From the NCBI RefSeq assembly GCF_014697025.1, contig NZ_JACJRC010000002.1:62001-126000 (forward strand): 64,000 nt of DNA, written 5' to 3'. This document shows positions 40,300 to 62,286 of the stretch, one piece after another. The notes under the pieces are model-generated. The model was not told where the DNA came from. It did no database searches and saw only the letters and a list, made by a program, of their open reading frames with translations. Position numbers and translations under genes: made by a program. Position 1 is the stretch's first letter. The number at the start of each line of letters is the position of its first letter. Origin of the DNA: Alkalinema sp. FACHB-956. GTDB lineage: Bacteria; Cyanobacteriota; Cyanobacteriia; Leptolyngbyales; Leptolyngbyaceae.

Positions 40300-40304
40300 G
40301 CTGA

Positions 40305-41207: not shown

Positions 41208-41355
41208 ACTCAATCTTAGAATTAGAAGTAACTGTGGTAGCAGCAACCTAGACTGAAGATTTCTACTTGATTACACTTCATTACACTATTCCTCCATTTA
41301 CTTACTTTCTAGAGACAAGTAAAAATAACTGTACCTTTTATAAGGCTGATTGTCT

Positions 41356-42681
41356 ATGTTTGATACATTCCAATCCACCCTTTATCAACGGCTACAGACA
41401 TTTGAGTTGGATGATCCAAGCCATGAATTTGGGTTTACCCGCCATCTGATGAAAAATCATGGCTGGACGCTAGCCTATGCTCAACGGGCGATCGCGGAGT
41501 ATAAAAAGTTTGCCTTTCTTACCGTCGTTGCCAACCATCAGGTGGTGCCTTCTGATCAGGTAGATCAGGTATGGCATGCCCACATACTCCTGACACAGTC
41601 CTACTGGGAAGAGTTTTGCCCAAAGGTGTTAGGGAAAAAACTGCACCATCATCCAGCCCGAGGGGGACGTGCAGAACGCGTAGAATTCCATCATCTTTAT
41701 ACACAAACGATCGCGAGTTATCGACAATTCTTTGGTGCTCCACCTATTGATCTTTGGTCACCGCCAGATGTGCGGTTTGGTGCTGAACTAAAGATGCAGC
41801 GGATTAGCTTAAACGATCACTGGGTGATTCCTAAACGTATTCTTCCTCTGAAAATTGCTCAGTCCTGGAGTATTCTAGCGATCGGGGTCGGTCTGATGCT
41901 GATTTACAGTGGTGCAGCCCATGGAGCAATGCCAGAGCAAGCAACAGGTAACACTGCTGCTAATCTATATTGGACAATCCTCTTTGGTGCGGTCATCCTG
42001 GGACTCAGCTTACGTTACGTGATCCAAAGTCCCAGCCAACAGCCCCATAAACCTCAGCTAGACCATTACCAAACCGCTTATTTAGCGGGAGGAGATTCAC
42101 GCTCTGTGGAGTTGGCTATTACTAATCTAGTCCATCAGGGCTATTTGCGTCCCAATGTTCGCAATCGGACGTTTGCGATCGAAAAACAGTTAGCGCCTGA
42201 AGCACCATCCCTCGAACAGCAAGTAATGAAGCAAGTTCATCGAACACCATCTTTCAAAGATCTACGGCAAGCTAGCCAATATCAAACGAATTTTCTAAGA
42301 AGATCACTAGAGCAGGAGAAGCTATTGATGACAGGATGGGCTGCTTTTATGGGATCAAGCTTTGTTTGGTTTATTCCTATGACATTGCTCAGCAGTGGTC
42401 TAGGTATTCAATCCTTATATGTAGATGGGGCTATCTGTACAGCGGCATGGTTATCAATTGGTATTGTGACTTTATGCTGTTGTTCTTCTAGTGGGCGCAC
42501 TCGTTGGGGGGATCGAGTCCTGGGACAGATCCAGGAACAGCACAATGCTTACGACCTGACTCAGCGCTTTGCCTTGTATGGCTATACAGCTCTATCCGGT
42601 GGGGCACTGGATGATTTAAAGCAAATGTTTGCAGCAGAAGCGCAAGAAAATACTGCGGGAGGTTGTGGCTGTGGCTGCTAG
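41356..42681 (+). CDS. TIGR04222-like membrane protein with glycine-rich-type N-domain
   Basis: The ATG at 41356 (MFDTFQSTLYQRLQTFELDD) gives 441 residues. The N-terminal 130 residues include the pattern LTYAQRAIAEYKKF/VWHAHILLTQSYWEEFC (as WHAHILLTQSYWEEFCPKVL), typical of the glycine-rich domain-containing protein family. Membrane segments follow at about residues 180-200 (SWSILAIGVGLMLIYSGAAH), 210-225 and 330-380. The middle cytosolic part resembles TIGR04222 proteins, and the end is CGCGC. Function is unknown. It is convergent with the methyltransferase and overlaps it by 4 bp. Confidence 0.72.
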   Translation: MFDTFQSTLYQRLQTFELDDPSHEFGFTRHLMKNHGWTLAYAQRAIAEYKKFAFLTVVANHQVVPSDQVDQVWHAHILLTQSYWEEFCPKVLGKKLHHHPARGGRAERVEFHHLYTQTIASYRQFFGAPPIDLWSPPDVRFGAELKMQRISLNDHWVIPKRILPLKIAQSWSILAIGVGLMLIYSGAAHGAMPEQATGNTAANLYWTILFGAVILGLSLRYVIQSPSQQPHKPQLDHYQTAYLAGGDSRSVELAITNLVHQGYLRPNVRNRTFAIEKQLAPEAPSLEQQVMKQVHRTPSFKDLRQASQYQTNFLRRSLEQEKLLMTGWAAFMGSSFVWFIPMTLLSSGLGIQSLYVDGAICTAAWLSIGIVTLCCCSSSGRTRWGDRVLGQIQEQHNAYDLTQRFALYGYTALSGGALDDLKQMFAAEAQENTAGGCGCGC

Positions 42682-43280
42682 GTCGCTCGCACCTGGAAAA
42701 TTCCTAAATGTTCTTTGCCTCGACGACTGACAATGGAATCTTTTGCTGCTTTGAACAGAATGACATCAAAGTCAGGGGCGAACAGTTCCAGAATGGCTTG
42801 GGGTTGAATGCTAAAGGGCGGCACGTCAGAGCGATGGCGAGTCAAGAATAGAGCAATCAGTTGCCCTTCTGGACGGAGCAGGTTCTTTACAACCTCAACG
42901 TAGCGCGATCGCAGCGTTGGATCGATCGTACAAAAACAATTGTGCTCCAGAACATAATCAAACTCCTGGAAAAACGCTGTTTCGAGTTCAAAGATATTAC
43001 GTTGTAAAAACTGAGTGGTTAGGGCTCGTGCTTGGGCCGTTGCCTGAGCATACTCGATCGCAGTGCGGGCAAAATCAAACCCGATAACGTCAAACCCTGC
43101 GGTTGAAAACAACATCGCATCCTGTCCCTTCCCACATCCCAAAACGGCCATTTTCCCAGCTTTAAGCGCTTGGGATGAAGCCAGTAGATTGATTAAGGGG
43201 GGAGCTGGACACCCTAGATCCCACCGATCTTGATTATTTCGATACCTGTCATTCCAGGATTCAGCAGCGAAGTCACTCAT
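42678..43280 (-). CDS. TPMT-family SAM-dependent methyltransferase
   Basis: This 200-residue protein starts at the ATG at 43280. It has the thiopurine-methyltransferase-like pattern: W-x-x-RY near residue 10, WDLGCPAPPLINLL, the SAM-binding motif AVLGCGKGQDAMLFSTAGFD, and the VLEHNCFCTIDP motif. Such enzymes methylate thiols, halides, selenium or tellurium compounds; the substrate is not predictable. Its 3' end overlaps that of the convergent membrane-protein gene by 4 bp. Confidence 0.9.
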   Translation of the reverse strand: MSDFAAESWNDRYRNNQDRWDLGCPAPPLINLLASSQALKAGKMAVLGCGKGQDAMLFSTAGFDVIGFDFARTAIEYAQATAQARALTTQFLQRNIFELETAFFQEFDYVLEHNCFCTIDPTLRSRYVEVVKNLLRPEGQLIALFLTRHRSDVPPFSIQPQAILELFAPDFDVILFKAAKDSIVSRRGKEHLGIFQVRAT

Positions 43281-43605
43281 ACTTAGAGATCAATCCTGTA
43301 ATATCCTTCTATACTCTGAATTTAGGACAGAATGACGACTTTCAGACACCTAATTGTCTCAAATTTCCAAAAAGATTGAAAATTAGGGAATAAATGACTA
43401 TATTACCTGTGATCGATACCTGCGCGGCCTAGTAGAAAGCTGATCAGATCCCAGTGGAAACTATCTCCGACTCAGCAAGTAACATTCCCAGAATATTTGA
43501 GTAGTTTGCTTGGTTAGTCTATAGAAAAATCAGTATAAAAAGCATCGTGCCCAAAGGACTGATGATCTCGAATCAGATTTTCGATAAGCATTCAGACAAG
43601 ATACT
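43281..43605. other. Intergenic stretch without recognised feature
   Basis: The 325 bp between the methyltransferase start and the next gene is AT-rich. It presumably holds the two divergent promoters. I see no further gene, repeat or strong palindrome. Confidence 0.4.
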
Positions 43606-44643
43606 ATGCAGACGATCTACCAGACAGTTTGGACTCCGCCAGCACAGATCAAGGATCATAGAGGCTTGTTGCTTGATCCTGATACATTTTTCTTCGCATC
43701 ACCTCCTCCAGAGATTGGAGCGGTAATTAGCGCAGCATCAGGAGCAGGTACTACGGAGGCACTCAATCGATTAAGTAGAACACCCATTTTGCAAACTTTA
43801 CTGGAAAATACCCGAAGCGTCTTCTCTTCTTGGCAACAAGTCCTGATCACCCTTTTCTACCTCTTCCTCTTTGCTCTCCTCAGCCTATTTTCTATTGGGG
43901 CTGGATTCTTAGTTGGAATAATACTGAATGCTTCCGGTGCAGGTTCAATTTGGGCTTGGTTTGGAGGAGGGTTAGTAGCAGTGCTATTTGGATGGTTTTA
44001 TATCACTACATTTCGCGGTTCCAAAGCTAAATGCTCTTTTGTGGGTGAACTGGGAGTTGCTTATTACTGGCAAACCCGTAAAGGAATCAAAGGTGAGGTT
44101 TTGCGTTTCTCAGAAACAACGGGATTACGCAAGAATATTACGAATCGCTACAGATATGGAGACTATGACAGCACTTCATTTCACTATATTTGGAACAATC
44201 AACCGTTCTTGTCGGATCAGCCAACCAGGAGACGACCTTTCTCCATTGCGGGAGCAGCTTGGGATATTTCAATTAGTGATGACTACATTTTTGCTCAAGC
44301 GGCGGAACGAGCTTGGAGCACCATCCGGCTCCAACGGGCACAAGCTGAACTCGCTCAGTCGGGTGTTGTTCGGTTTTCAACAGCTCAGAGTATCAAGTTG
44401 GAAATAGGTTCAGGTTTTATTACGGTTATCTTTTCCCATCGAGTGCCAGGACGGATTGAGGCCCATGAACTAGAATTAACGACGGGAAATGGCACGATTG
44501 CAATTCGACGCAAGACTGATGGATGGTCATCTGGACGCTTTAACCCCCTTGATCTTGTGAATGTTGTCTTGCAAACCCGTGACATTGACGACCTGAATGT
44601 ATTTCTTTACTTAGTCGAAGCGATCGTTTTGAAAAGATCCTAG
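43606..44643 (+). CDS. Membrane protein of unknown function
   Basis: This 345-residue protein starts at the ATG at 43606. Two or three membrane segments lie between residues 75 and 140 (LITLFYLFLFALLSLFSIGA, FLVGIILNASGAGSIWAWFG, LVAVLFGWFYITTF). The C-terminal part is soluble and strand-rich (SIKLEIGSGFITVIFSHRVP). I do not recognise it. The short string IFAQAAERAWSTIRLQRA near residue 230 resembles YFARAAESAWNQYRQ in a fragment just downstream (to 45103), which suggests a broken paralogue there. Confidence 0.7.
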   Translation: MQTIYQTVWTPPAQIKDHRGLLLDPDTFFFASPPPEIGAVISAASGAGTTEALNRLSRTPILQTLLENTRSVFSSWQQVLITLFYLFLFALLSLFSIGAGFLVGIILNASGAGSIWAWFGGGLVAVLFGWFYITTFRGSKAKCSFVGELGVAYYWQTRKGIKGEVLRFSETTGLRKNITNRYRYGDYDSTSFHYIWNNQPFLSDQPTRRRPFSIAGAAWDISISDDYIFAQAAERAWSTIRLQRAQAELAQSGVVRFSTAQSIKLEIGSGFITVIFSHRVPGRIEAHELELTTGNGTIAIRRKTDGWSSGRFNPLDLVNVVLQTRDIDDLNVFLYLVEAIVLKRS

Positions 44644-44727
44644 TCTAGCGTTTACAAGCTAGCTTGTGTCCACTCTCCATCCATTAAATATATCAATCCA
44701 GCAAATTAGCCCTGTCAGGATGATGGA

Positions 44728-44838
44728 ATGATACAAGGCATTGTTCAAGAAGGACTGACGATCTAGAGTCGAATTCTTGGTAAATCCATTCGCTATACCG
44801 TTTATCTGCCTGCTGACTATGCCACTTCCGTGCTTTAG
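44728..44838 (+). pseudogene. Esterase gene, 5' part
   Basis: From an ATG at 44728 the frame reads MIQGIVQEGLTI, a TAG (44764-44766), SRILGKSIRYTVYLPADYAT and a stop. SRILGKSIRYTVYLPADY is typical of the start of enterochelin-esterase/S-formylglutathione-hydrolase-like alpha/beta hydrolases, where Gln or Leu usually stands at the TAG position. The matching C-terminal part lies 8 kb downstream at 52804-53088. Confidence 0.72.
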
Positions 44839-45239
44839 CTTTAGGTGTAAAAAAGGACGATTAGCACACTCTAAAAAGGCGATGTTTCTTTTTCAGGATA
44901 ATGTACAACTTCATGTGAAGACAACTGATTATTACACAAATGGATTCTACCAAAGCACCGGATGTTATTTTGCTTGGATGCGAGGGCAAGAGCGGCTGTA
45001 TGAAATAACTACAAATTATCACAGGTGCAGAAGAGAAAAATCAGATTGTGTCTTATATTTTGCTAGAGCGGCTGAGTCAGCTTGGAATCAATATCGTCAA
45101 TAGGAAAATCATGATATTTTACAAACAGGATGAAAAGCAAATGGTCTTTTTCTTGGATGAGTCTGCCGTAGAGGCGATCGCCGTTTATAGAGGGGCTGTT
45201 GAGAAGTTACGCTGTACTAGAATAGAGAGCAGTAGTTGA
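44777..45239 (+). pseudogene. Overlapping small frames, probable gene fragments
   Basis: Two partly overlapping frames are seen. One (44777-45103) ends with CVLYFARAAESAWNQYRQ, similar to a piece of the membrane protein at 43606. The other (about 45000-45239) reads TGAEEKNQIVSYILLERLSQ, then a strand-helix pattern and VEKLRCTRIESSS. Neither has a convincing start. The last 70 bp of the second belong to the 255-bp repeat. They are best read as decayed ends of genes broken when the island was assembled. Confidence 0.4.
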
Positions 45240-45426
45240 TAATCCGGCTCCATGCAAATCTACTGCACACATCCCTCATCGACAAAAGAAAACCCTCATT
45301 TGACCGAATTGTCGCTGTCTTCGGGTGATCGGCTACCACTATCGCTTCATTGTGAAACCTGTGGAATGCCATTGATTTTGAGTGATGGTCGCTACGTTCC
45401 GATCGAATCCTTAGGGGATGGAGGAT
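45172..45426. repeat. Direct repeat of about 255 bp, left copy
   Basis: The sequence from AGGCGATCGCCGTTTATAGA to the glycine-loop codons of the kinase gene recurs at 52560-52814 with about five mismatches. This copy covers the end of a small frame, the kinase gene's leader and its first 58 codons. See also the right copy and the findings. Confidence 0.92.
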
Positions 45427-47204
45427 TTGGTCGAGTATTTTTGGCCTATGACCTCAAATTCCCCCAAAATGATGGCACCTATGCCCGTCGAGCCATCAAA
45501 CAATTCCGTAGTGATCGCGGACTCTTTCCTGGGCAGATTCAACAAGCACTGAAAGCATTTGAGTCCGAAGCCGACGTCTTAGATAAACTACGTCATACTC
45601 AGATTCCACGGGTATATGAACCTTTTCAAGTGCAATCGGGTGATCACAGCTATGCATATTTCGTTCAAGAGTATGTGCCGGGTGATAACTTACAAAAAAT
45701 TCTGGACAATTCATCTGGCACGGTTTGGCCTGAAACTGCGGTGAAAGAAATGCTCCGTCAGATGCTAGAGATTTTAGATTATTTGCAGACTCGATCGTCA
45801 CCTGTAATTCATCGCGATATCAAACCCTCTAATATCATTCAGACAACCGATGGTAAATACCATCTGATTGATTTTGGCGCGGTGCATCAGGTAATGGCAG
45901 ATACAATATCCACAATTTCAGGACAGACAACTCAACCTTTTTGCACACCAGAATACGCCGCTCCAGAACAATTACAGGGACAAATTGGGTTGACGACTGA
46001 TTTATATGCACTTGCTAAAACTGCTATTTGCTTGTTAACTGGTAATCCCAATGGAGCATTGCCACATCACACATCTTGGCAGTTTAAACGCTTGCTTTTG
46101 CAGATGCGCGATCCTGACCCGGTGAAACGGCCAGCGTCGGCCAGCGTAGCTTTAACGCAACTGAATCAGCAGCGTCCGCCGGGACGTCTACTAGGGTATG
46201 GGTTACTTGGAGGTTGTACGATCGCGGGGCTAATCACCTATGGCCTGCCTCAGTTCAATCGTCCCAAAATCCCGCAACGCGATTGGACAGTGAGCTTATC
46301 AACAATTAGTGATATTAGCTTTCCTCCACCAGTTGAAACCACTTATTTTTATGGTGGCAGTACTACTGCAGAACCCCTTGCCGCAGAAATCAACGATCGA
46401 ATTCAACGTAACAACCTGAAATTGATTTTGAAACGAAAGCCGCCCAGTCAGGGATATGAGTATTCGGCAGACGGCATAGATCGATTGATTCAGGGAGAAC
46501 TAGACTTTGCGCTTTCCTCGAAAGGGATTCAAGCTAAGCAAGCCAACAACGCCCGTGCTCGCCAAGTCAAACTGGCTAAAATTGCCGTTGCAACAACAAG
46601 TAGTGCCGTTGTCGTGCATCCAGAATTACCAATTGGCGGAATTACTTCAAAACAATTAGAGTTGATTGAGGCAAGAAAGATTCTTAATTGGCAAGAAGTG
46701 GGCGGGCCTGATTTGCCGATTCGGATGTATGCCACTGATGCTCAATATATCAAAAATCCGAGCGGTGGAGAACCACAAGCGGGAGTCGATTTTACTAAAG
46801 TAAAAAATTTTGAGGAGGCATTTCAAAGAATTCAAGATGATCGTGGGGGTATGATGATTGCGCCTACTTCAGTCGTTGTGCGGTCGATCGTCGGCTGCTC
46901 GTTGAAAGCCTTAAAACTGGGGTTCGATGCTGGTTCTCTCCTCCATCCTTACCAACAAGAGCGGATTCTTTCCAGCGCAGATTGCCGTGCGAATAAACGA
47001 AATCAGGTGAATCTGAAGATAATTGAAGCATCTTCCTATAAACTTCTATCGACAATTTCAGTAATTGTCTTGCAAGATGCTGGCATTAAACAGTGGATAG
47101 GTGAATACTATGCCGCTGTGCTGACCACAAAAGAAGCCAAAAGAATTATGGCAGAACTGGGCTATGTCCCCATTCCGTCAGTTAATCCAGAAGTCCAAAA
47201 TTGA
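45252..47204 (+). CDS. Ser/Thr kinase fused to a PstS-like binding domain
   Basis: This 650-residue protein starts at the ATG at 45252. Cys5, Cys34 and Cys37 form the short zinc-ribbon start common in cyanobacterial kinases. The kinase domain spans about residues 45-300, with the Gly loop GDGGFG (55-60), Lys83, HRDIKPSN (187-194) and DFG (207-209). A membrane helix lies near 314-331 (LGYGLLGGCTIAGLITYGLP). From about 355 the outer part is a phosphate-binding-protein-like domain (TTYFYGGSTTAEPLAAEIND, FALSSKGI). It is probably a receptor kinase that senses a ligand, perhaps phosphate, outside the membrane. Confidence 0.85.
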   Translation: MQIYCTHPSSTKENPHLTELSLSSGDRLPLSLHCETCGMPLILSDGRYVPIESLGDGGFGRVFLAYDLKFPQNDGTYARRAIKQFRSDRGLFPGQIQQALKAFESEADVLDKLRHTQIPRVYEPFQVQSGDHSYAYFVQEYVPGDNLQKILDNSSGTVWPETAVKEMLRQMLEILDYLQTRSSPVIHRDIKPSNIIQTTDGKYHLIDFGAVHQVMADTISTISGQTTQPFCTPEYAAPEQLQGQIGLTTDLYALAKTAICLLTGNPNGALPHHTSWQFKRLLLQMRDPDPVKRPASASVALTQLNQQRPPGRLLGYGLLGGCTIAGLITYGLPQFNRPKIPQRDWTVSLSTISDISFPPPVETTYFYGGSTTAEPLAAEINDRIQRNNLKLILKRKPPSQGYEYSADGIDRLIQGELDFALSSKGIQAKQANNARARQVKLAKIAVATTSSAVVVHPELPIGGITSKQLELIEARKILNWQEVGGPDLPIRMYATDAQYIKNPSGGEPQAGVDFTKVKNFEEAFQRIQDDRGGMMIAPTSVVVRSIVGCSLKALKLGFDAGSLLHPYQQERILSSADCRANKRNQVNLKIIEASSYKLLSTISVIVLQDAGIKQWIGEYYAAVLTTKEAKRIMAELGYVPIPSVNPEVQN

Positions 47205-47227
47205 GTCAAGACTATTTCGAGTATGGC

Positions 47228-48715
47228 CTATAGGAATGCTTGTTCAAGCAAGGCTAAGTTTTGTCCGGCGTAGCCTGTGGTGATTTGTGTTTTAAGCTGT
47301 TGAATGCCTTGCCGAAGTTTCAAGGGTGGAATTTCTTGTTTTAGAAGACAGACGATCTTGCTTACAATTCGCTGCATCTGTTCAGCACGAACCACTTCAT
47401 CTTCTACCACCAAACTATGACTAATCAGCAATTTGGCCATTGCATTAGGCCGTCCTTTAATTAAATAGCGAATCTCGCGGGCAATTTCCTCGATTAGTAA
47501 ATTCGTGATTTCTTTCAGGGTGACAGGCTCTACTTCGTACTCTGCCTTGGCGGATTTGCCAATTAGTGAGTGCTGACTCATGAGGGAATAGAGCGCGTCA
47601 TCTAGCTGTGCTAGTGGCACCTCAGGCAGACTCTGGCGCAACTCAAGATAGTCGAGCGGTTGTCGCCAAATTGCCAGCCAGTATAAGATTGCTTTTTCGA
47701 GTGCCGACAAATGGCGAAACTCCGATCGAAGAATTTGTGTGATATCTTTATTTCCATAGATACTAACCCCTGATTCAACTAAAGTGGCGATGCTGCCAGC
47801 ATGAATAGTCCGAATCCGTTCCGCCATCAATTTAATAATTTGAGGATTATTGTAGATTGCGATAAACCTTTGTAGCTCCAGTTCACTGCCTTGCAGTCCC
47901 TCTGCTATCAAAAATTCGCGATCGTCTGCATCAGTCATTCCAGTTAGCTCATAGCACTTGGGTGTCAGGTGCTGGGTGAGTAATGGCGATAGCCGTTGCC
48001 GACTGACGAGCAGTAGCGTACTTTGATGATCATGTCCGATCGCGCGCAGGAGCTTTTGATAGTCGTCGTCAATATCGGTTGTCAGTATTGTTTCCCATTG
48101 ATCAAGCACAATTAGGCAGCGATGCCGTTTCAGACAACGTTGCAAATCCGCCAAGGTTCCCTGTTCGACTACGCCTTGGGACAAACTGAACAAAAGTTGG
48201 TTGATTAATTCCGGGGGAGTGATGGCGGTTTCCAGCGAATACCAAGCATGGTGTGAAAACTGTGATTTAGTCTGGTGCCAGACACTTCGTGCCACAGTCG
48301 TTTTGCCCATTCCCGCACGACCATAGAGCCAAACCATACGGCATTGTCGATCGTTCAACCAATTTTGCAATTGTGCGATCGCCGGACGACGACCATAACA
48401 GACTGGCGCTGGGGCATCGGGTGTCGTACTCAAATCAGCAGCATCTTCCAATTCGACATCAAGCGCTTTGCACAGAGCCTGAAAGTTTTCGATTTGGACT
48501 TTTCGCCCTTGTAGAAACCGCCTGAGCGTCGCTACCGAAGGTGAAAAGCCTGCCACGTTCGATCTCCAGTAATTGTCCCAACCGATTGTCGGCGCTGGTT
48601 GAGTAGCTTCCATTGCCGCTTGCAGCCAGCGCTCATCATCGGCTGTCCAACCGCGTTTGAGGCGTGCTTGCTCAATAATAGTTTTACCGTGTTCAGAGAG
48701 ACAGAGAGAGACCAT
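47228..48715 (-). CDS. NB-ARC/STAND-type ATPase with HTH-like N-terminus
   Basis: This 495-residue protein starts at the ATG at 48715. Residues 1-95 contain a helix-turn-helix-like part (VATLRRFLQGRKVQIENFQA, then LCKALDVELED). An NB-ARC-like ATPase follows, with Walker A GRAGMGKT (132-139) and a Walker B-like CLIVLDQWE. A winged-helix-like arm follows (LEKAILYWLAIWRQPLDYLE). WD40 or TPR sensor repeats common in STAND proteins are absent. It is convergent with the kinase gene (gap 23 bp). A regulatory or immunity role is possible; no partner is proved. Confidence 0.8.
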   Translation of the reverse strand: MVSLCLSEHGKTIIEQARLKRGWTADDERWLQAAMEATQPAPTIGWDNYWRSNVAGFSPSVATLRRFLQGRKVQIENFQALCKALDVELEDAADLSTTPDAPAPVCYGRRPAIAQLQNWLNDRQCRMVWLYGRAGMGKTTVARSVWHQTKSQFSHHAWYSLETAITPPELINQLLFSLSQGVVEQGTLADLQRCLKRHRCLIVLDQWETILTTDIDDDYQKLLRAIGHDHQSTLLLVSRQRLSPLLTQHLTPKCYELTGMTDADDREFLIAEGLQGSELELQRFIAIYNNPQIIKLMAERIRTIHAGSIATLVESGVSIYGNKDITQILRSEFRHLSALEKAILYWLAIWRQPLDYLELRQSLPEVPLAQLDDALYSLMSQHSLIGKSAKAEYEVEPVTLKEITNLLIEEIAREIRYLIKGRPNAMAKLLISHSLVVEDEVVRAEQMQRIVSKIVCLLKQEIPPLKLRQGIQQLKTQITTGYAGQNLALLEQAFL

Positions 48716-48879
48716 ACATTAGATTGGAATTTACCATCATCCGTACCTGCTTTCTGGTCGTTTGTCAAGGATCACTTTTAGCTCAGTTGGTTCAGCCTGT
48801 GACTGAGCTGAAGCTGAGACTAGCCAAACTCAAGCAAATTTTTCTAAACTGCATATGTCTCAATTGCTGAGGATGATTT

Positions 48880-49101
48880 ATGACACAGGTTAAGATGAAT
48901 CGAATCCAAATCTCATCGATCATGTATATCTTAGTCGGACTCGTAATTCTCGGCGTTGCTTACCTATTCAAACCTTCAATTATTGAAGATTTGAAAAAAA
49001 GTTCAAAACGTCGTCCAGGCTATCCAGATGAACGAGCTATTAGTCGAGAGTTCCATCAATTATGGCAAGAAGAAGTGGCTAAGTCCGCGGGCCAATCATA
49101 A
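48880..49101 (+). CDS. Small single-span membrane protein
   Basis: This 73-residue protein starts at the ATG at 48880 with GAGGA upstream. One membrane helix (SIMYILVGLVILGVAYLF, about residues 13-30) is followed by a basic then acidic soluble tail (LKKSSKRRPGYPDERAISRE). No family is recognised. It is the first of a run of plus-strand genes of unknown function in the island. Confidence 0.6.
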   Translation: MTQVKMNRIQISSIMYILVGLVILGVAYLFKPSIIEDLKKSSKRRPGYPDERAISREFHQLWQEEVAKSAGQS

Positions 49102-49313
49102 ATAGGAGACTGCATAATGACCTATTCAATTTCTGTTCAATTCATGCGCTCAATTATTCCAAGATTCATTACCGTTCAAAGTACGATCGCCCTTACGATC
49201 GCAACTTTGATATTGGGCTTAGAGCCATTAACGATCCTTTAACTTATAGACGTAGGATCAGTTCAGATAAGATTGGAAAGTACCCCCCAACATTGTCATC
49301 TAGGAGATAACCA

Positions 49314-49790
49314 ATGAGCTTGCCAGCACGATCAATTACAGTAGTTTTTGCGACTGTAGCACTGAGTCTTGAAATGTTTGCCACAAGCGCAACTGCATCA
49401 AATCTTAATCTTCAACAACAGTCCTCAAGCAGTAATTCACCTTCTACAGTACTTCTCAGCCAAGAAAGACCAGTGCTATTGGCTCGAAATACAAAACGGA
49501 AACCGAAGAAATCTAAAACGAAGAAATCCAAATCCCGTCCAAATAATGTTGTCGTCTCACCCGAAGAAGCATCTCAGTACCGACAATTGGAAATCGATGG
49601 ATGGGCAGCAGCTGAACAATGTATTCTTTATGGAGATGGTGCTGCATGTAATCGCCTATCGAATATCTATTCAACGCTACAGAATTTGTGTTCTCAAAAA
49701 CCATCTCAAATTTGCTCCAATCATTACACAAATTTAAGTGGTCATGAAGCATATCTGAGAACGATAAAACCGATGCTAGAAGTGCATTGA
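49314..49790 (+). CDS. Secreted protein of unknown function
   Basis: This 158-residue protein starts at the ATG at 49314 with AGGAGA upstream. A signal peptide (MSLPARSITVVFATVALSLE, cleavage after about residue 28) precedes a Ser/Gln-rich linker, a strongly basic Lys-rich stretch (RNTKRKPKKSKTKKSKSRPN) and a small Cys-containing helical end (four Cys, AEQCILYGDGAACNRLS). Probably periplasmic. I do not recognise the family. Confidence 0.62.
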   Translation: MSLPARSITVVFATVALSLEMFATSATASNLNLQQQSSSSNSPSTVLLSQERPVLLARNTKRKPKKSKTKKSKSRPNNVVVSPEEASQYRQLEIDGWAAAEQCILYGDGAACNRLSNIYSTLQNLCSQKPSQICSNHYTNLSGHEAYLRTIKPMLEVH

Positions 49791-49969
49791 AGAGAGTTAT
49801 TTTCCTCCTACCTTATTACTTCTGATTTTCGCATGACCACTTGCGATGACCGCCTAGCTATAAAGTAGCACTTGGTTGGACATATAAACATGACTCATCT
49901 GATCTATGCGCAGTAGGTGAGCTATCGTTTCCTATATCATCCTTGCCACTCTGTACATGAAGAGGTCTT

Positions 49970-50527
49970 ATGAATCAGTCTTTAAAGGATTGTTTGAAAA
50001 AGAACGATATACCAGGAAAGGTTATAGCGTTCATCATATATATCATGATGCTTTCACTTGTGTATCGCTTCGCTTTCGGTGAGGCTTGGCTATACCCTTT
50101 TATGGTTTATATAACGCTTGCAGCGATTTTCAGTATTAAACCACTCATCACATTAATACAACGCTTTTACTGTCCGATCTGCCATCAGAATTTTGCATTG
50201 GTCATACGTGATCCTGTAATCACATGGGATGGTTATATACGGAAGGTGCAGACGACCTACTGTTGCTCACATTGTTCTTACGAAAAAGTATATGAATTTT
50301 CTCAAATCGATGAGTATCGAAAGTTTCAGCTTGAAGAAGCCAAGCGAGATTTTGCCAAAGAGTTTGAGCATGAATTAAAAGATTTATCACTCATCGATCG
50401 CGCAAAAGCCCTTAGAGAAATCCGAAGACAGGCAAAAGATACTGAAGAAGCAAGATTCCGGGAAAAACAAAATGCCGAATATTTAGAATGGCGAGAAAAA
50501 CAAGGATATTACTCAAACTATGATTAG
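49970..50527 (+). CDS. Membrane protein with zinc-ribbon
   Basis: This 185-residue protein starts at the ATG at 49970 with AGAGG upstream. Two membrane segments (VIAFIIYIMMLSLVYRFAF, MVYITLAAIFSIKPLI) are followed by a zinc-ribbon (CPICHQNF then CCSHC, about residues 66-105). A charged, coiled-coil-like tail ends with EWREKQGYYSNYD. Function unknown. The next gene also pairs membrane helices with zinc ribbons. Confidence 0.65.
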   Translation: MNQSLKDCLKKNDIPGKVIAFIIYIMMLSLVYRFAFGEAWLYPFMVYITLAAIFSIKPLITLIQRFYCPICHQNFALVIRDPVITWDGYIRKVQTTYCCSHCSYEKVYEFSQIDEYRKFQLEEAKRDFAKEFEHELKDLSLIDRAKALREIRRQAKDTEEARFREKQNAEYLEWREKQGYYSNYD

Positions 50528-50658
50528 TCCATGATAAAACTGCTTCAGCAGTAGCATAGATGGGACGCTCTGGTTAGTACTTCTCCTGAGTAATCCTAAA
50601 CCCTTTATGTTTTGACGCAAAATCTGTTGAAAGTTTCAATTAGTTGGTAACAGCTGCT

Positions 50659-51717
50659 ATGATTGTCAGTCTTTTTGTAGGAATTTCAATCGTTCTACTC
50701 ATCACCTCCCGCTATTTCTTTAAGCGGCATCGAGATTGTGCAAAAGTCGCGATCGCAACACCAATATATTTGCATCCTTTTACCAAGGTTATATTAGAAG
50801 ACACGGCAAGCAAGGAAACTCTCTCTGCCCAGAGTTCTTTATTTATATACCAGATATTCGCTTTTTTAGGAGTATGGGTATCTTTATCCTCGATAGCCAT
50901 CATCTTAGCTGAAATTATATCCGCAAGGGTAGAATCTTTCTTGTTGATTGTCACTTTGCTTTTGCTGGCATTTATTCTCTATTCGGTTATCTATATATTT
51001 TCCAATGCTTCCAAACTAGAGCCACAGGTCAGAATCAAACGGAAAAGGCACTGCGCTTTTTGCAAAACACCTTTTATTAAGCAGGATATCCAAGCGATCG
51101 ATTTTCTCCATGATACTGAGCTGGCAGAATATCATGCAGGTCTAATTCAATGCCGTGTGAATACTGAATTTTGTTTAGATTGCTCTTTCCCAATTAGTCG
51201 AGAAACATTAGATCTTAGTATCTCATCTTTCATCAAAGATGAGTCTACCATCTGTCCGAAATGCAAAAACCGTACTTTCATCGTCAGAAACATCAGCGAA
51301 ATACTTACGACTGAACGTATTGGCGATGCGGGCTATAGAAATTTTATGCAGCAATGCAATTATTGCGGGTGCCAAGTAGAAAAGCAGCCTCGTATTACCC
51401 TGTTATCACTAGAGCCAACAATTAAATCTGCAATTTATGATCAATATACGACCCAGTATCAATCCTATTCTTCTAGCCTCATAGCAGCGATTCAAAGGAT
51501 GATTCGGCTTGATCGAGCCGGGAAAAATCGTTTGTCAGAACCCTATCACATAATTGACAATGCTCGACTCCGAAAAAATCGCACTCCGAGCCTGAGAGAA
51601 ATCAAATACTTGAGCACAGACGACTTAGAACGCGCGATCGAATTCATTCACAAATGTGTGGAAAGAAGAGAGGTAGAGGAACAGGCGATAGCAGATTCCG
51701 CACCTGATCCCTATTAA
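50659..51717 (+). CDS. Membrane protein with several Cys-x2-Cys motifs
   Basis: The ATG at 50659 (MIVSLFVGISIVLLITSRYF) gives 352 residues. Three membrane segments lie in the first 115 residues. The soluble part has paired zinc-ribbon-like motifs (CAFCKTPF, FCLDCSF, CPKCKNR, CNYCGC), suggesting two zinc sites. It resembles the preceding gene in layout. No known family is recognised. Given the neighbourhood it may be part of a membrane complex specific to this island. Confidence 0.65.
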   Translation: MIVSLFVGISIVLLITSRYFFKRHRDCAKVAIATPIYLHPFTKVILEDTASKETLSAQSSLFIYQIFAFLGVWVSLSSIAIILAEIISARVESFLLIVTLLLLAFILYSVIYIFSNASKLEPQVRIKRKRHCAFCKTPFIKQDIQAIDFLHDTELAEYHAGLIQCRVNTEFCLDCSFPISRETLDLSISSFIKDESTICPKCKNRTFIVRNISEILTTERIGDAGYRNFMQQCNYCGCQVEKQPRITLLSLEPTIKSAIYDQYTTQYQSYSSSLIAAIQRMIRLDRAGKNRLSEPYHIIDNARLRKNRTPSLREIKYLSTDDLERAIEFIHKCVERREVEEQAIADSAPDPY

Positions 51718-51755
51718 ATGACAAAATAATCGAGACTTTTTGAGGTTGGTCAGCT

Positions 51756-52406
51756 ATGGCTTTAAGTAATGAATCGGACGAGTATATTCTCAGACAACCT
51801 ATTCAGTCAAAAGAAGATGCAATGGCCGCATGGCAGCAATGGTTGAGATGGGGAGAGAACGATAATATTGGAGCTGGATTGATTGGCGTGATCGCCAGTT
51901 TTGGCCTTGGCGATCCAGAGATTATCGACTTTCTGGAATCTTGTACTAGTAGTGGTATTGCGGCAATTCGATCGGCGGCTTCCATTGCCCTCACCAATTT
52001 AGCAAATCAAGGCGATGTGCTTGCTCTATTTGCCAGCAGACGTTATCAGCAATATGGACATGAGCGATTCAGCATTCAAGCTAAGCAGGAGCGTGAATTT
52101 TATCAAAAACAGGCAGATGCCGCAGGGCTTTCGCTCACAGAGTTTTGCACGATCAAAGAGCAAAAACGAGTTGCTCAATTTGCTACTTCAGCAGAACGTC
52201 GCCAAGAGCTAGCAATGCCCTCGCAATTTCAGCCAGGACAACGGGTGCAATGTCTCATCACAGGCTGGCCGCATACAGGCGCATTCGGAACGGTTGAACG
52301 CGCTGTCACTAAATACTTTGTGGTGGTTCGGTTTGATAATGGTTACCGCACCATCCAGTCTGATTCTGCCTTTAAGTTGTTAGATCAAGCTCATCCTGAG
52401 TCATGA
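51756..52406 (+). CDS. Unknown protein with HEAT-like N-part and KOW/SH3-like end
   Basis: This 216-residue protein starts at the ATG at 51756. The first 100 residues look like helical repeats (LGDPEIIDFLESCTSSGIAA, IRSAASIALTNLANQGDVLA). The last 55 (FQPGQRVQCLITGWPHTGAF through VVVRFDNGYRTIQ) look like a small KOW/SH3-type barrel. No family is recognised. It is the last intact gene of the island. Confidence 0.6.
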   Translation: MALSNESDEYILRQPIQSKEDAMAAWQQWLRWGENDNIGAGLIGVIASFGLGDPEIIDFLESCTSSGIAAIRSAASIALTNLANQGDVLALFASRRYQQYGHERFSIQAKQEREFYQKQADAAGLSLTEFCTIKEQKRVAQFATSAERRQELAMPSQFQPGQRVQCLITGWPHTGAFGTVERAVTKYFVVVRFDNGYRTIQSDSAFKLLDQAHPES

Positions 52407-52423
52407 ACAGCAACCTCCTACTT

Positions 52424-52463
52424 ATTTAAAAAGCCAATTATTAATTTAAAAAGCCAATTATTA
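52424..52463. repeat. Tandem repeat, 20 bp x 2
   Basis: ATTTAAAAAGCCAATTATTA occurs twice in tandem 17 bp after the stop codon of the preceding gene. Confidence 0.8.
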
Positions 52464-52559
52464 AAAATGCCGATTTAGCTTACCAAAAGAATCCCCTCAG
52501 CCATGTCTGCCGTAGGGCAATTGACAAATCCCCCTGGTTTTGGGCGTTATCTTAGACAT

Positions 52560-52814
52560 AGGCGATCGCCGTTTATAGAGGGGCTGTTGAGAAGTTACGC
52601 TGTACTAGAATAGAGAGCAGTAGTTGATAATCCGGCTCCATGCAAATCTACTGCACATATCCCTCATCGACAAAAGAAAACCCTCATTTGACCGAATTGT
52701 CGCTGTCTTCGGGTGATCGGCTACCACTATCGCTTCATTGTGAAACCTGTGGAATGCCATTGATTTTGAGTGATGGTCGCTACGTTCCGATCGAATCCTT
52801 GGGCAATGGGGGAT
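52560..52814. repeat. Direct repeat of about 255 bp, right copy
   Basis: Near-identical copy of 45172-45426 (offset 7388 bp). Mismatches are one C/T change in the kinase coding part and four in the last 15 bp. Its right end touches the 3' part of the broken esterase gene. Confidence 0.92.
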
Positions 52815-52816
52815 AG
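52640..52816 (+). pseudogene. Truncated copy of the kinase gene, 58 codons
   Basis: The frame starts at an ATG at 52640 and matches the first 58 codons of the kinase at 45252 (MQIYCTYPSSTKENPHLTEL onward) with a His-to-Tyr change. It reads SLGNGG and then a TAG. The rest of the kinase is absent. Confidence 0.88.
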
Positions 52817-53088
52817 GGGGCGCTGGTCTATGGATTGAGGCATCCTACGAGCCCTTCTGCTTGGCGGAGGTAGCAAATCCTGAGTCCTTGCAAAACCTCC
52901 AGATCTATTTAGATTGTGGCGACCAAGATTTTCGAAATGAAGGCGTTGCTCTGTTCCATATTCGATTACGACAATTAAAGATAACCCATCAATATCGAGT
53001 CCGCTCCGGGAGCCATACCTTGACTTACTGGTGCAGTGGATTAGCCCCCGCCTTAGAATTTATGGGTGCAACGTTCCGTCGATCGTGA
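52804..53088 (+). pseudogene. Esterase gene, 3' part
   Basis: A frame of about 94 codons reads QWGIGGAGLWIEASYEPFCL, IYLDCGDQDFRNEGVALFHI, KITHQYRVRSGSHTLTYWCS, and ends FMGATFRRS. Asp in DCGDQD and His in SGSHT fit the last two catalytic residues of an alpha/beta-hydrolase esterase. The nucleophile serine region is missing. The N-terminal part of such a gene lies at 44728-44838. Confidence 0.75.
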
Positions 53089-53656
53089 ATTAGAAACGTC
53101 AATGGATTAGCATTAATTCCTATCGATTAATCCGTGGAAAGATAGAGTGCATCAAATCCATTCCTTCATATTCGATAAATTGAAACGCGATTACTTTGGC
53201 TTCAATCGTCTTTTTCATAGAGTACCTAGAACATTCATAATTTATTTTGGTTGATTCTGACCCGATCCTCAAAGATCTACTTATCAGTAACATCGAAAAT
53301 TAGTGGAGATTCGCTACTAGACTTTTCAGATTGACTACTGAATAATTTAATCATTGAAGAGTTCAGGAATGAATCTTTCTAGGTATTGAATCAACTCAAT
53401 TCGCTGTGGAGTTATATCGGTCTACACTGCCTGATTTAGTTAACTAAATTAGATGGATTTCGAAACCTGAAAAGACGACAAAACACTTGTCTAGTCTGCT
53501 TTTCAAAGAGTTTCACTCCACACAAATAAATAGATATCCACCCAGTTTGCAACTGATCAACCATGGTTTCTAATTGTTTAGAAAGCAAGGGTTGAGATGG
53601 GTATCTATCTATTTGGTAATTGAACTCATAGATTTGTTGGATGTAAGGAGGGAGAA
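53089..53656. other. Upstream region of the first bicarbonate transporter cluster
   Basis: No clear gene is present. A 32-codon minus-strand frame (53120-53218, MKKTIEAKVIAFQFIEYEGM) has a start codon but no good ribosome site, and I do not claim it. The region contains the palindrome described separately and should hold the cmp promoter. Confidence 0.45.
53434..53449. promoter_or_regulatory. 16-bp perfect palindrome, candidate CmpR-type operator
   Basis: ATTTAGTTAACTAAAT is a perfect palindrome 208 bp before cmpA1. It contains TTA-N6-TAA, close to the TTA-N7/8-TAA pattern bound by CmpR/NdhR-type LysR regulators of cyanobacterial carbon-uptake operons. The spacing differs by one base, so this is a candidate only. 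Confidence 0.45.
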
Positions 53657-55006
53657 ATGTCTCGGAAGAACCTAGCGCTTTCACGGCGCAAATTTGTGCT
53701 GACTGCAAGCGCTACTGCTATGAGTTCGATTCTTCTGAAGGGCTGTATGGGCAATCCGCCTGAAGATCAACCAGCGGTTTCTGGCTCACCCACCGTGGCT
53801 GCGGGTTCCGGTGTGAAAGCAGGCGAAGAACCTGAGGTCAAAACTGCGAAGCTGGGCTACCTCCCGATCGTGGAATCTGCGCCCTTAATCATTGCGTCAG
53901 CCAAAGGCTTTTTCGCTAAATATGGCATGACCGATGTCAAAGTGGAAAAGCAAGCCAACTGGGGTGCGGCACGGGATAATGTCAAAATTGGCTCCGGTGG
54001 TGGCGGAATTGATGGGGGACAGTGGCAAATGCCGATGCCCTACCTGATTACTGAAGGGATTATTACTGATGGGGCAAAAATCCCAATGTATATCCTCTGT
54101 CAGCTCAACACTCAGGGCAATGGAATCGCGATCGCGAATAAACACAAAGGGAAAAACGTTGGACTGAAGGCAGATCCAAAGTACTTTGCAGACCTCAAAG
54201 CGAGTGGCAATCGGTTCAAGGCCGCCTACACCTTCCCGAAAGCGAACCAAGATTTTTGGATTCGCTATTGGTTAGCGGGGAATGGCATTGATCCCGATTC
54301 GGAAGTGGATTTGCTAACGGTTCCTGCATCCCAAACCGTAGCGGATATGAAACGGGGGGCAATGGATGCCTTTAGTACGGGAGATCCCTGGCCCTACCGG
54401 ATTGTGGCCGATGACATTGGCTTTATCTCAGCCCTCACGTCAGAATTGTGGCAGGCCCATCCAGAAGAATATTTCGCAGTGCGTCAGGATTGGGCTGATA
54501 AGCATCCCAAGGCCACAAAAGCACTACTGAAAGCCATCATGGAGGCCCAGCAATGGTGTGATGACTTCAAAAACCGGAAGGAAATGACAGCCATCCTCGC
54601 CCAGCGTGAATACTTTGGTGTTCCAGAAAAGGTGCTCGAAGAACCCCTCATGGGTAAATACAATCTGGGTGAACGCACTATCGATGATCCGCAGCAATCG
54701 GTTCTTTATTGGAAGGACAAACGAGGCAGCGTGTCCTATCCCTACCAGAGCCATGACCTGTGGTTCCTGACCGAAAGCCATCGTTGGAACTTCCTGGATA
54801 AAGGCCAGTATGAGTCTGCGAAAGCCCTGATCAGCAAGGTCAACCGCGAGGATCTCTGGAAGCAATGCGCCCAGGAAATTGGTGTCCCAGCCAGCGACAT
54901 TCCCAGCGACAAATCTCGGGGTATTGAGGAATTCTTTGATGGCGTGAAGTTTGACCCCGCCAACCCAGAGGCATACCTCAGCAGCCTCAAGATTAAGCGG
55001 GTTTAG
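53657..55006 (+). CDS. cmpA: Bicarbonate-binding lipoprotein CmpA, first cluster
   Basis: This 449-residue protein starts at the ATG at 53657 with GGAGGGAG upstream. SRRKF and the lipobox LLKGC (Cys30) mark a twin-arginine lipoprotein signal. The binding domain has [28 protein letters not shown] and [12 protein letters not shown]. In CmpA, Gln of NQDFW and the second Glu of HPEE hold bicarbonate; in NrtA these are His and Lys. CmpA-type residues are therefore present at both places. It delivers bicarbonate from the periplasm to the CmpB/C/D transporter encoded next. Confidence 0.88.
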
Positions 55007-55062
55007 TGAGTCCGATCTCCCTTCCCACTGCAAGAGCAAGTTTATTAAGGAGAACTTGAATT

Positions 55063-55890
55063 ATGACCATTGCCCAAAAGTGCCCCACCAGTTCGGGCTT
55101 CGCCTTGGATGCCAAGCTGCGTCAGCGGATTGATGACTTTTTAACCCCCTTCGTTACATTGTTGATTCTGTTGGCAATCTGGCAGTTTTTCTCATTGTTC
55201 AATCAAAATCTTCCTGGCCCAATTCGGGTTGTTCAAGAAACCTGGAAGTTAATTCTCTATCCGTTCTATGACAAAGGTGGTACGGATAAGGGCTTATTCT
55301 GGCAGGTGTTTGCCAGCTTGCAACGGGTCGCGATCGGGTATACCTTTGCTGCTATCGTTGGGATTTCCGTTGGCATTATCATTGGCTTAAACAAACGGAT
55401 CTACAAAGGACTCGATCCGATTTTCCAAATTCTGCGAACCGTCCCGCCCTTGGCTTGGGTGCCGATCGCCCTGGCAGCCCTGCAACAGAACCAACCAGCA
55501 GCTTTGTTCGTCATTTTCATTACCGCTGTTTGGCCGATTCTGATTAACACGTCCGTTGGTGTTAAACAAATTCCCCAGGATTACACCAACGTGGCCCAAG
55601 TGCTGCAACTGCCCAAGTCAGAGTTTTACTTTAAGATTCTCTTCCCCTCCGCCTTACCCTACATCTTCACCGGCCTCCGCATTGCCATTGGCTTGGCTTG
55701 GTTGGCAATCATCGCAGCAGAAATCGTCATGTCCGGGATTGTAGGGATTGGTTTCTTCATCTGGAACGCTTACCAAAATGGCCAAGTGAGCGAAATTATT
55801 TTGGCGCTAGTCTACATCGGCTTGGTGGGCTGGGGGTTGGATAAGTTAATGGAATGGTTACAATCTCGTATCCTCCCCGGCCAGCGCTAA
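55063..55890 (+). CDS. cmpB: Bicarbonate transporter permease CmpB, first cluster
   Basis: This 275-residue protein starts at the ATG at 55063 with AAGGAG upstream, 57 bp after cmpA1. It has about six membrane helices and the BPD_transp_1 fold of SsuC/NrtB permeases, including LRTVPPLAWVPIALAALQQN and the EAA-loop region LPKSEFYFKILFPSALPYIF that contacts the ATPases. It forms the transmembrane channel of the ABC transporter. The membrane part is nearly the same length as that of the second cluster. Confidence 0.92.
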   Translation: MTIAQKCPTSSGFALDAKLRQRIDDFLTPFVTLLILLAIWQFFSLFNQNLPGPIRVVQETWKLILYPFYDKGGTDKGLFWQVFASLQRVAIGYTFAAIVGISVGIIIGLNKRIYKGLDPIFQILRTVPPLAWVPIALAALQQNQPAALFVIFITAVWPILINTSVGVKQIPQDYTNVAQVLQLPKSEFYFKILFPSALPYIFTGLRIAIGLAWLAIIAAEIVMSGIVGIGFFIWNAYQNGQVSEIILALVYIGLVGWGLDKLMEWLQSRILPGQR

Positions 55891-55899
55891 TCTCGGCTT

Positions 55900-55977
55900 G
55901 CTCTTGCACTGCAAGAGCGGTGGGAGAGACAAAACAGGATTTTCATTCTGTTCTCCTCTGTTTTCGTTTCTCTCACC
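55900..55977 (+). promoter_or_regulatory. Two hairpins between cmpB and cmpC
   Basis: The gap holds GCTCTTGCACTGCAAGAGC (55900-55918), a near-perfect palindrome, and then a longer imperfect stem made of GGTGGGAGAGACAAAACAG (55919-55937) and its inverse at 55958-55977. They are placed to act as an attenuator or mRNA-processing site between permease and ATPase genes. Confidence 0.5.
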
Positions 55978-56039
55978 TTTTCTAATCTTGGATTGGTAGA
56001 AAGCATTCCCATCATTTCAGAATTGCGGGAGCCAGTATC

Positions 56040-58043
56040 ATGACTTTTGTTACGGTTGAGAACTTAGAGAAAACCTTCGACCTCAGTGGAGGTGGGCAAT
56101 ACGTTGCACTGAAGGGCATTGAGTTAAACATCGAGAAAGGGGAATTTATTTCCCTGATTGGTCACTCCGGTTGTGGTAAATCAACGCTGTTGAATATGGT
56201 GGCGGGATTGGATTTGCCAACGGAAGGGGTGGTCATGTTGCAGGGCGAACAAATTCTGCGTCCCGGCCCCGATCGCATGGTCGTGTTCCAGAACTATTCC
56301 CTCTTGCCTTGGATGACCGTGCGGGAAAACATCCGGTTGGCGGTGAAAAATGTGCTATCCCATCTCTCCAAGGCAGAGCAGGAAGAAGTCATCGAACGCC
56401 ACATTGACATGGTGGGTCTGCGCCACGCCGCCGACAAGCCCCCTGAGCAATTGTCCGGCGGGATGAAGCAACGGGTTGCGATCGCGCGGGCCTTGGCCAT
56501 CCGTCCCAAATTGCTGTTGTTAGATGAACCCTTTGGGGCGCTGGATGCCTTGACGCGCGGTAACCTGCAAGAGCAGTTAATGAAGATTTGCGAGGAAAAT
56601 AAGGTCACCGCAATTATGGTGACCCACGACGTGGATGAGGCGATTTTGCTCAGCGATCGGGTCGTGATGCTGACCAACGGGCCGGAATCCAACATTGGCC
56701 AAATCCTGGAGGTGGATATTCCCCGGCCCCGCAAGCGCATGGAAGTGGTGGAGCATCCCAACTACTACAAGTACCGCAGCGAAATCATCTACTTCCTGAA
56801 CCAACAGAAGTTGATTAAAAAGCTCCGTGCTCGCAAGCAAACGGTGGTGTCTCGCCATGGTCTCGAAAAGGTCAACTTAGAAATCGGCTTTTTGCCCCTG
56901 GTGGCCTGTGCCCCGATCGTCATTGCCAAGGAAAAAGGCTTCTTTGCCCACCATGGCTTGGATGAAGTGAACCTAGTGCGGGAATCCAGCTGGCGGGGGA
57001 TTCAGGATGGCATTGCTGGAGGCTACATGGATGCAGCCTTGATGCCGTCGGGAATGCCCGTCTGGATGACCGTGGGCGGCATGAATGACAAGCCCGTTCC
57101 CGTTGCCACTTCCCTGACCCTGACCCGCAACGGCAACGCGATCGCTTTGAATAAGCGCTTTGCCGATCAGGGCATTCGCAGCCTCAATGATCTAAAACGC
57201 TTTCTGCGAGCGACTCCGGATACAAAGCATATCTTTGGGGTTGCCCACCCGGCCTCTTCCCACAACCTGCTCCTGCGCTATTGGTTAGCAGCGGGGGGCA
57301 TTGATCCTGACAAGGATGTGGAGGTGCTGCCCTTACCGCCCGCGCAGATGGTCGCCAACTTGCAAGCGGGAACGATCGACGGCTATTCGATCGGAGAACC
57401 CTGGGTGACGCGGGCCGTTGTGGAAGAAACGGGTTACGAAATTGCCACGGACTTGGAAATCTGGAACGGCCACCCCGGTAAGGTGCTCGGCGTGCGGGAG
57501 GACTGGGCCTTAGCCTATCCCAATACCCACGTAGCCTTGGTCAAAGCCTTGCTGGAAGCCTGCCAATACTGCGCCGATCCGGCTCACCATGGCGAAGTGC
57601 GCGAGATTCTCTCCCAAGCGGAGTACTTATCCATGGATCACGAGTACATTTACCTGAGCGATCAACAACAGGCCACCTGTAGCGTCACCCAAGACACGCG
57701 CCAACTGTCCCACCACATTTTCTTTGGGGGCACGGCCAACCGTCCCAGCCGCACGGAAAATCTGTGGTTGCTGACCCAACTGGCCCGCTGGGGGGATGTG
57801 GCGTTTCCCCGCAACTGGGTGGAGGTGCTGGAACGGGTGTGTAAGGTCAGTGTGTTTAGTGTGGCCGCGCGGGAATTGGGTCTGTCCGACATGACGACCT
57901 ACAGCCGAGGCGCGATCGAGCTCTTTGATGGCAAGACGTTTACCGCCGATGACCCGATCAGTTACCTCAATAGCCTAGAGATTAAGCATGACATTTACAT
58001 GGCGGATGTCCTGTTGGGGGTACCCACGGCACGGGCTGCTTAA
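56040..58043 (+). CDS. cmpC: CmpC: ABC ATPase fused to a binding-protein domain, first cluster
   Basis: This 667-residue protein starts at the ATG at 56040. The first 260 residues are the ATPase (Walker A GHSGCGKSTLLNM, signature LSGGMKQRVAIARAL, Walker B LLLLDEPFGALDAL). From about residue 280 a CmpA/NrtA-like domain follows (LEIGFLPLVACAPIVIAKEK, SGMPVWMTVGG, GHPGKVLGVREDW). In NrtC/CmpC this domain acts as a regulatory sensor of the substrate or a related ion. It energises transport together with CmpD. Confidence 0.9.
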   Translation: MTFVTVENLEKTFDLSGGGQYVALKGIELNIEKGEFISLIGHSGCGKSTLLNMVAGLDLPTEGVVMLQGEQILRPGPDRMVVFQNYSLLPWMTVRENIRLAVKNVLSHLSKAEQEEVIERHIDMVGLRHAADKPPEQLSGGMKQRVAIARALAIRPKLLLLDEPFGALDALTRGNLQEQLMKICEENKVTAIMVTHDVDEAILLSDRVVMLTNGPESNIGQILEVDIPRPRKRMEVVEHPNYYKYRSEIIYFLNQQKLIKKLRARKQTVVSRHGLEKVNLEIGFLPLVACAPIVIAKEKGFFAHHGLDEVNLVRESSWRGIQDGIAGGYMDAALMPSGMPVWMTVGGMNDKPVPVATSLTLTRNGNAIALNKRFADQGIRSLNDLKRFLRATPDTKHIFGVAHPASSHNLLLRYWLAAGGIDPDKDVEVLPLPPAQMVANLQAGTIDGYSIGEPWVTRAVVEETGYEIATDLEIWNGHPGKVLGVREDWALAYPNTHVALVKALLEACQYCADPAHHGEVREILSQAEYLSMDHEYIYLSDQQQATCSVTQDTRQLSHHIFFGGTANRPSRTENLWLLTQLARWGDVAFPRNWVEVLERVCKVSVFSVAARELGLSDMTTYSRGAIELFDGKTFTADDPISYLNSLEIKHDIYMADVLLGVPTARAA

Positions 58044-58056
58044 TCCAGCCATCGCT

Positions 58057-58107
58057 TAGCATCTGAAATGGCCTAGCGTCTGAAATGGCCTAGCGTCTGA
58101 AACTGGC
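58057..58107. repeat. 17-bp tandem repeat x 3
   Basis: Three copies of TAGCGTCTGAAATGGCC, with small changes in the first and third, lie between the cmpC1 stop and cmpD1. Confidence 0.85.
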
Positions 58108-58142
58108 TCGCTCTGACTCACAATTGCCCAGGAATTCAGTCT

Positions 58143-61058: not shown

Positions 61059-61096
61059 TTATTAAGGTTTAGTCTAGTCCGTTGGAATTGGATAGC

Positions 61097-61161
61097 TTTG
61101 GGTTCAGGCTTTAGGTTCAAACTTTAGGTTCAGACTTTGGGTTCAGATTTTAGATTCAGAC
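61097..61161. repeat. 13-bp tandem repeat x 5
   Basis: Five copies of a 13-bp unit like TTTAGGTTCAGAC lie between cmpA2 and cmpB2. Copies differ at a few positions. Confidence 0.9.
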
Positions 61162-61318
61162 CTTTAAGTAACCTGGGTTCACTGATTGACCACGCCACGA
61201 ATGGGTTGGCACTTGACTAACGTACATTAACTCATTAGTCAATTCGTTCGTAGATCCGTTGGCTCATGTAGATATTCAAGAATTCATTCAAGAATTCATT
61301 CATTCAGAGGAGAACAGA

Positions 61319-62146: not shown

Positions 62147-62286
62147 GACCCATTCCAACGTCAGTTGAAAGGTCAGTCCGAAGATGAGTCCTAGCGTGAT
62201 GCAATCCGGGATTAAACAGCCTGGACTGACTGCACTGGATTTACGCAAAACAGCATAACAACCACAGGGATTACAGGAGGGCATGC

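Follow-up and report, generated by a model that had tools for sequence, protein, structure and literature searches.

Tandem duplication and Campbell-type integration by way of short direct homology belong to established recombination genetics. In cyanobacteria, IS-associated pseudogenes have been described, for instance in 'Nostoc azollae' (PMC4369082). The locus reported here lies in a 64,000-nucleotide stretch of the Alkalinema sp. FACHB-956 genome (hereafter the window, whose coordinates we use throughout), and consists of an esterase gene broken into two remnants with about 8 kb between them. We favour, with somewhat better than even confidence, the reading that the esterase became a pseudogene by a multi-step, recombinase-free rearrangement of a mosaic 8 kb.

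When the intact 274-aa esterase of G029, a genome of the same family, was used as a tblastn query against the whole window, two pieces were recovered and no further significant match was found. The N-terminal piece covers residues 1-35 (74%, E 1e-10) and the C-terminal piece residues 194-274, and the two lie on the same strand and in order. The features of the locus are as follows.

43606-44643, + strand: intact gene for a 345-aa protein with hydrophobic segments, the conserved upstream neighbour of the esterase (DNA matches in relatives)
44728-44832, + strand: esterase N remnant, codons 1-35, with a TAG at codon 13 (tblastn to the intact G029 esterase)
44839-45103, + strand: probable degraded fragment of a paralogue of the upstream 345-aa protein (profile HMM and pairwise score)
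45172-45426, + strand: repeat copy R, spanning the first 58 kinase codons and about 80 bp ahead of them (98% identical to 52560-52814)
45252-47204, + strand: intact Ser/Thr protein kinase, 650 aa (PF00069, E 3.6e-31; PF12849, E 2.5e-9)
47228-48715, - strand: NB-ARC/STAND NTPase, 495 aa, with an HTH-like N-terminus, convergent with the kinase (PF00931, E 7e-11; weak HTH_26)
48880-49101, + strand: truncated PBP gene, approximately the first 33 codons (hydrophobic N-terminus), fused to unrelated sequence (alignment score)
49314-49790, + strand: 158-aa protein, signal-like N-terminus, Lys-rich (weak similarity to a G029 protein)
49970-50527, + strand: 185-aa protein, hydrophobic N-terminus and CxxC pairs (translation)
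50644-51717, + strand: 357-aa protein, hydrophobic segments and CxxC pairs (genome search and the domain of a relative)
51756-52406, + strand: 216-aa ORF (weak partial relatives only)
52560-52814, + strand: repeat copy R', a truncated 5' end of the kinase gene, just before the esterase C remnant (98% identical to R)
52843-53088, + strand: esterase C remnant, codons 194-274 plus the stop (tblastn, 72%, E 6e-36)

At the DNA level, the match to the G029 esterase gene runs over 44722-44831 (77% identity) and 52842-53090 (75%). About 158 codons are absent from the window, corresponding to residues 36-193 and including the GLSMG serine motif, which occupies residues 127-131 of the intact G029 protein. 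In the N remnant, homology ends past codon 35 and codon 13 is an in-frame TAG; translated, 44728-44838 reads MIQGIVQEGLTI, stop, SRILGKSIRYTVYLPADYATSVL, stop. The translation of 52804-53088 includes the esterase-like stretch SYEPF...LDCGDQDFRNEGVALFHIRLRQ...SGSHTLTYW...RRS, followed by a stop. By itself the C part matches PF00756 at just E 0.031, so the case for a split gene depends on the intact orthologue, and the intact relatives match this family at E 4.7e-37. In G029 the esterase (L095:7957-8781) directly follows the orthologue of the window's 345-aa gene (L095:6920-7941; 77% DNA identity), a protein for which profile searches gave no family above cut-off. A second intact esterase, in G091 (L109:9362-10186), returns the same two window pieces when used as the query; the gene directly upstream of it is homologous to the TIGR04222 gene that the window has at 41350, so the neighbourhood is partly conserved there too. 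The two parts therefore correspond to one gene, in order, in both relatives, as the original prediction had held; the possibility that they derive from different esterase genes was checked and does not apply in G029 or G091. The loss of the middle with the catalytic serine, also predicted, is borne out, and both the catalytic residues and the reading frame are gone.

The C-terminal part was first placed from 52804 onwards. That it carries an esterase C-terminus stands; position 52804 itself lies within the tail of a kinase-derived repeat, and homology to the esterase is demonstrable from about 52842. An esterase origin was also considered for the 28 bp that separate R' from the C remnant, and has no support at the protein level. 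A second copy of the split esterase was sought in the same genome: there are five PF00756-type hits, one of which is a full-domain S-formylglutathione hydrolase-like gene and not a copy. Over the 82 codons of the C remnant, differences from G029 fall at codon positions 1, 2 and 3 in the ratio 15/7/40. Since they lie mostly at third positions, a pattern of past selection, the inactivation is recent.

A recognisable close esterase occurs in 3 of the 340 genomes of the class: intact in G029, intact in G091, and as the remnant in the window itself. Beyond those, a wider search of genome contigs gave relatives just ~30-43% identical, mainly from Bacteroidota. The esterase is a rare secondary gene in cyanobacteria, and evidently a dispensable one. 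In G008 (L110:8163-9311), a gene of the 345-aa type, which matches the window gene at L110:10343-9336 (77% DNA identity), is followed by esterase codons 1-29 and then by a cut, and the sequence that makes the cut runs into a fragment of a Mutator/IS256-family transposase, with an IS1-type transposase nearby. The same esterase has thus been broken independently in G008, by an IS256-type element. Just downstream of the intact G091 esterase are IS3-type (rve) transposase fragments (L109:10929-12034), so that in two relatives, G008 and G091, the esterase locus lies near IS elements.

These neighbours give some weight to an alternative in which an IS in the esterase recombined with another copy, brought in distant sequence and was then lost. 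The IS256-type and IS1-type elements of G008 sit at the equivalent place, the IS3-type fragments of G091 lie downstream of the gene, and pseudogenes that arose in connection with IS elements are documented in cyanobacteria (PMC4369082). Against this, neither junction in the window shows a recognisable trace of an IS, and no further copies of the repeat's left flank or of the filler exist in the genome. We consider this alternative unlikely, and return to the recombinase-free rearrangement of the mosaic segment, which draws on the structure of the 8 kb itself.

Part of that structure is a direct repeat that the original prediction did not mention. R and R' are 255 bp long, 98% identical and spaced 7388 bp apart, so that nearly identical direct repeats bound a 7388-bp unit, as in the product of a tandem duplication or a Campbell-type integration. 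The copies differ at 5 positions, of which 4 cluster in the last 14 bp and a single one lies within the first 241 bp. R' ends 28 bp before the esterase C remnant, and the repeat is internal on the left of the 8-kb segment and terminal on its right. No third copy was found in the genome, and an origin of the last 14 bp of R' from another kinase gene was rejected, as a search of the genome found no copy. Comparison with the upstream flank of the native kinase gene of G059, a further relative, gave no convincing alignment for the sequence on either side of the repeat. HIP1 is a cyanobacterial palindrome, and the left edge of both R and R', AGGCGATCGCC, contains it. The sequence GGCGATCGCC occurs 5 times in the 64 kb, 2 of them at the repeat edges, and its core GCGATCGC once per 1.7 kb; the position of HIP1 at the left edge is suggestive of a microhomology join. 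Overall, the 255-bp repeat points to duplication or homologous recombination together with illegitimate joining, and not to a clean insertion. Two adjacent 20-bp direct repeats (TATTAATTTAAAAAGCCAAT) were also observed at 52419-52458, between the 216-aa ORF and R'.

The left half holds the kinase-PBP, NB-ARC and truncated PBP genes. Ahead of them, next to the esterase N remnant, 44839-45103 is probably a fragment of a paralogue of the 345-aa gene, on moderate evidence: in a search of 12 translated fragments from this locus, an HMM of 5 homologues gives 16.8 bits (E 1.9e-6), and the pairwise score of 64 equals the best of 2000 shuffles. The 650-aa kinase consists of a kinase domain (49-266), a hydrophobic segment and a PstS-like PBP_like_2 domain (~405-493); its match to TIGR02136 (E 2.3e-16) is under the cut-off. 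In G059 its orthologue is 69-70% identical and adjoins an orthologue of the NB-ARC protein (67% identical), which is followed by a full-length PBP gene (L094:5715-6701, 328 aa; PF12849, E 2.7e-13). Against this gene the truncated 48880-49101 scores 68, where the maximum of 1000 shuffles is 53. Kinase, NB-ARC and PBP are therefore neighbours in that order in G059, elsewhere than at the esterase locus, in a genome without a close esterase orthologue and on an ordinary contig that has no island features and whose other genes include a pdxJ-like one and one for a chloride channel. The truncation of the PBP gene is, in its own right, a second scar within the 8 kb.

The right half comprises four poorly conserved ORFs (158, 185, 357 and 216 aa). 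The 158-aa protein is weakly similar to a 150-aa protein that G029 encodes two genes upstream of its 345-aa orthologue; the score is 70, where 500 shuffles reach at most 56, a comparison to be read with caution because of low complexity. The 357-aa protein, found in 7 of 390 genomes including its own, shares ~25% identity with the zinc-ribbon portion of membrane proteins that have a TPM domain and come from another cyanobacterial family; its relative L126 has PF04536 (E 1.4e-35). For the 185-aa protein no relative was found in plasmids (PLSDB) or profile libraries, and the 216-aa ORF shows 31-46% identity over parts in 4 other genomes among the 340 searched. Both the 185- and the 357-aa translation show hydrophobic segments and CxxC motifs of a zinc-ribbon-like kind. 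The predicted cargo of receptor kinase, NB-ARC ATPase and membrane or zinc-ribbon genes was thus broadly right, with PBP_like_2 added to the kinase. We regard these genes as passengers with presumed functions of their own (a membrane kinase with a PstS-like sensor domain; a STAND NTPase), and, as part of the explanation that we prefer, think it rather probable that they do not act on the esterase.

Elsewhere in the window, 53657-63881 holds two tandem NrtABC/CmpABC-like ABC transporter gene sets (substrate-binding protein, permease, and ATPase fused to a binding domain), ~70-80% alike in places with a start-to-start offset of ~6.0-6.3 kb, together with a further ATPase at ~58143-59012. A 74-bp direct repeat (31729-31802 and 34246-34319; 85% identical, spaced 2517 bp) lies away from the esterase locus.

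Three broken pieces are thus present in the insert, namely the truncated PBP gene, the probable paralogue fragment and the truncated second kinase 5' end. Broken genes together with an internal duplication argue for a multi-step rearrangement and are not the signature of one mobile island. We envision that illegitimate recombination, accompanied by deletion, first placed a 5' fragment of the kinase gene against the esterase, perhaps with the HIP1 palindrome at the repeat's left edge as the microhomology, and that RecA-type recombination through the 255-bp homology then added the 7388-bp unit, as a Campbell-type integration of an excised unit. Alternatively, the 7388-bp unit may have been tandemly duplicated and its second copy mostly deleted along with the middle of the esterase. 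A since-lost IS could have begun the process, as in G008. An intermediate, with the kinase fragment beside the esterase and no 7.4 kb, was not found among the relatives, in a searched set that includes no congeneric genome.

A rival explanation, close to the original prediction's reading of the locus as a clear insertion scar with accessory cargo, is that a mobile genomic island or integrative element with signalling and defence genes inserted into the esterase. What stands of it is that 8 kb absent from the intact G029 locus sits inside one gene; the esterase of G008 is moreover broken by a mobile element, and the NB-ARC protein and the kinase resemble proteins sometimes found in defence systems (PADLOC, kinase domain only). 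The exchange is nevertheless a replacement, with ~8.0 kb in and ~0.47 kb out, so that instead of the target duplication to be expected of an insertion, about 470 bp of host sequence is missing. Comparison of the ORFs in the 8 kb with Pfam, NCBIfam, PADLOC and PHROGs found no recombinase, integrase or transposase, a search that very degraded remnants could escape, and no island family came to light in which a recombinase might be looked for. Neither terminal inverted repeats nor a target duplication were found at the junctions, no tRNA was found that could provide an attachment site, and no structured RNA reached the Rfam gathering thresholds in 40000-56000. The segment is single-copy in the assembly of its own genome; what was seen to recur among relatives is kinase, NB-ARC and PBP, in the G059 cluster that lacks island features. 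An anti-phage defence system (PD-T4-6, Avs-like STAND) was considered and rejected, since the PADLOC matches comprise the kinase domain or P-loop alone and none is full-length. A phage or plasmid origin was likewise rejected: the 357- and 185-aa proteins have no relatives in PLSDB and the former none in IMG/VR, and plasmid relatives of the kinase and NB-ARC proteins are distant (~25-40% identity), with no close plasmid or viral relative. Because no recombinase, defined ends or second copy were found, a self-mobile island is less likely, and we judge it quite improbable.

Extremely improbable is an assembly artefact, a misjoin or collapsed loop at a repeat longer than a short read in a 59-contig draft, against which the repeat does not include the left junction at 44832, R and R' differ at 5 positions, and esterase N, R, unit, R' and esterase C form the sole path using all joins, if the esterase flanks and the kinase unit share one chromosome. 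We give similarly slight credence to the idea that the repeat-bounded 7388-bp unit is amplifiable or excisable, moving by homologous recombination without a recombinase of its own, with the assembly representing one collapsed copy.

Taken together, the locus looks like ordinary genome decay and reshuffling and not like a new mobile element, the rearrangement of a mosaic segment remaining the reading that we prefer. It is a small, clear example of the loss of a seldom retained gene in cyanobacteria, with one esterase broken in two relatives by different routes, and illustrates that what resembles an island with cargo may consist of host-type genes and gene fragments in a mosaic. For annotation, the two esterase fragments are best called one pseudogene, of which 52560-52814 is not a part. 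Compared with the PF00756 esterases (S-formylglutathione hydrolase/feruloyl esterase-like), which the intact relatives match, the window retains two remnants without the catalytic serine. Like the IS-associated pseudogenes of cyanobacteria, a non-essential gene is interrupted and decays, and a relative has this gene disrupted by mobile elements; unlike them, no IS is visible here, and the insert combines host-type genes and fragments in a mosaic that contains a direct repeat. Finally, a 7.4-kb unit between nearly identical 255-bp direct repeats is what either tandem duplication or Campbell integration would be expected to leave, whereas the repeat here is a gene fragment joined to a pseudogene, and the event is reconstructed from sequence.
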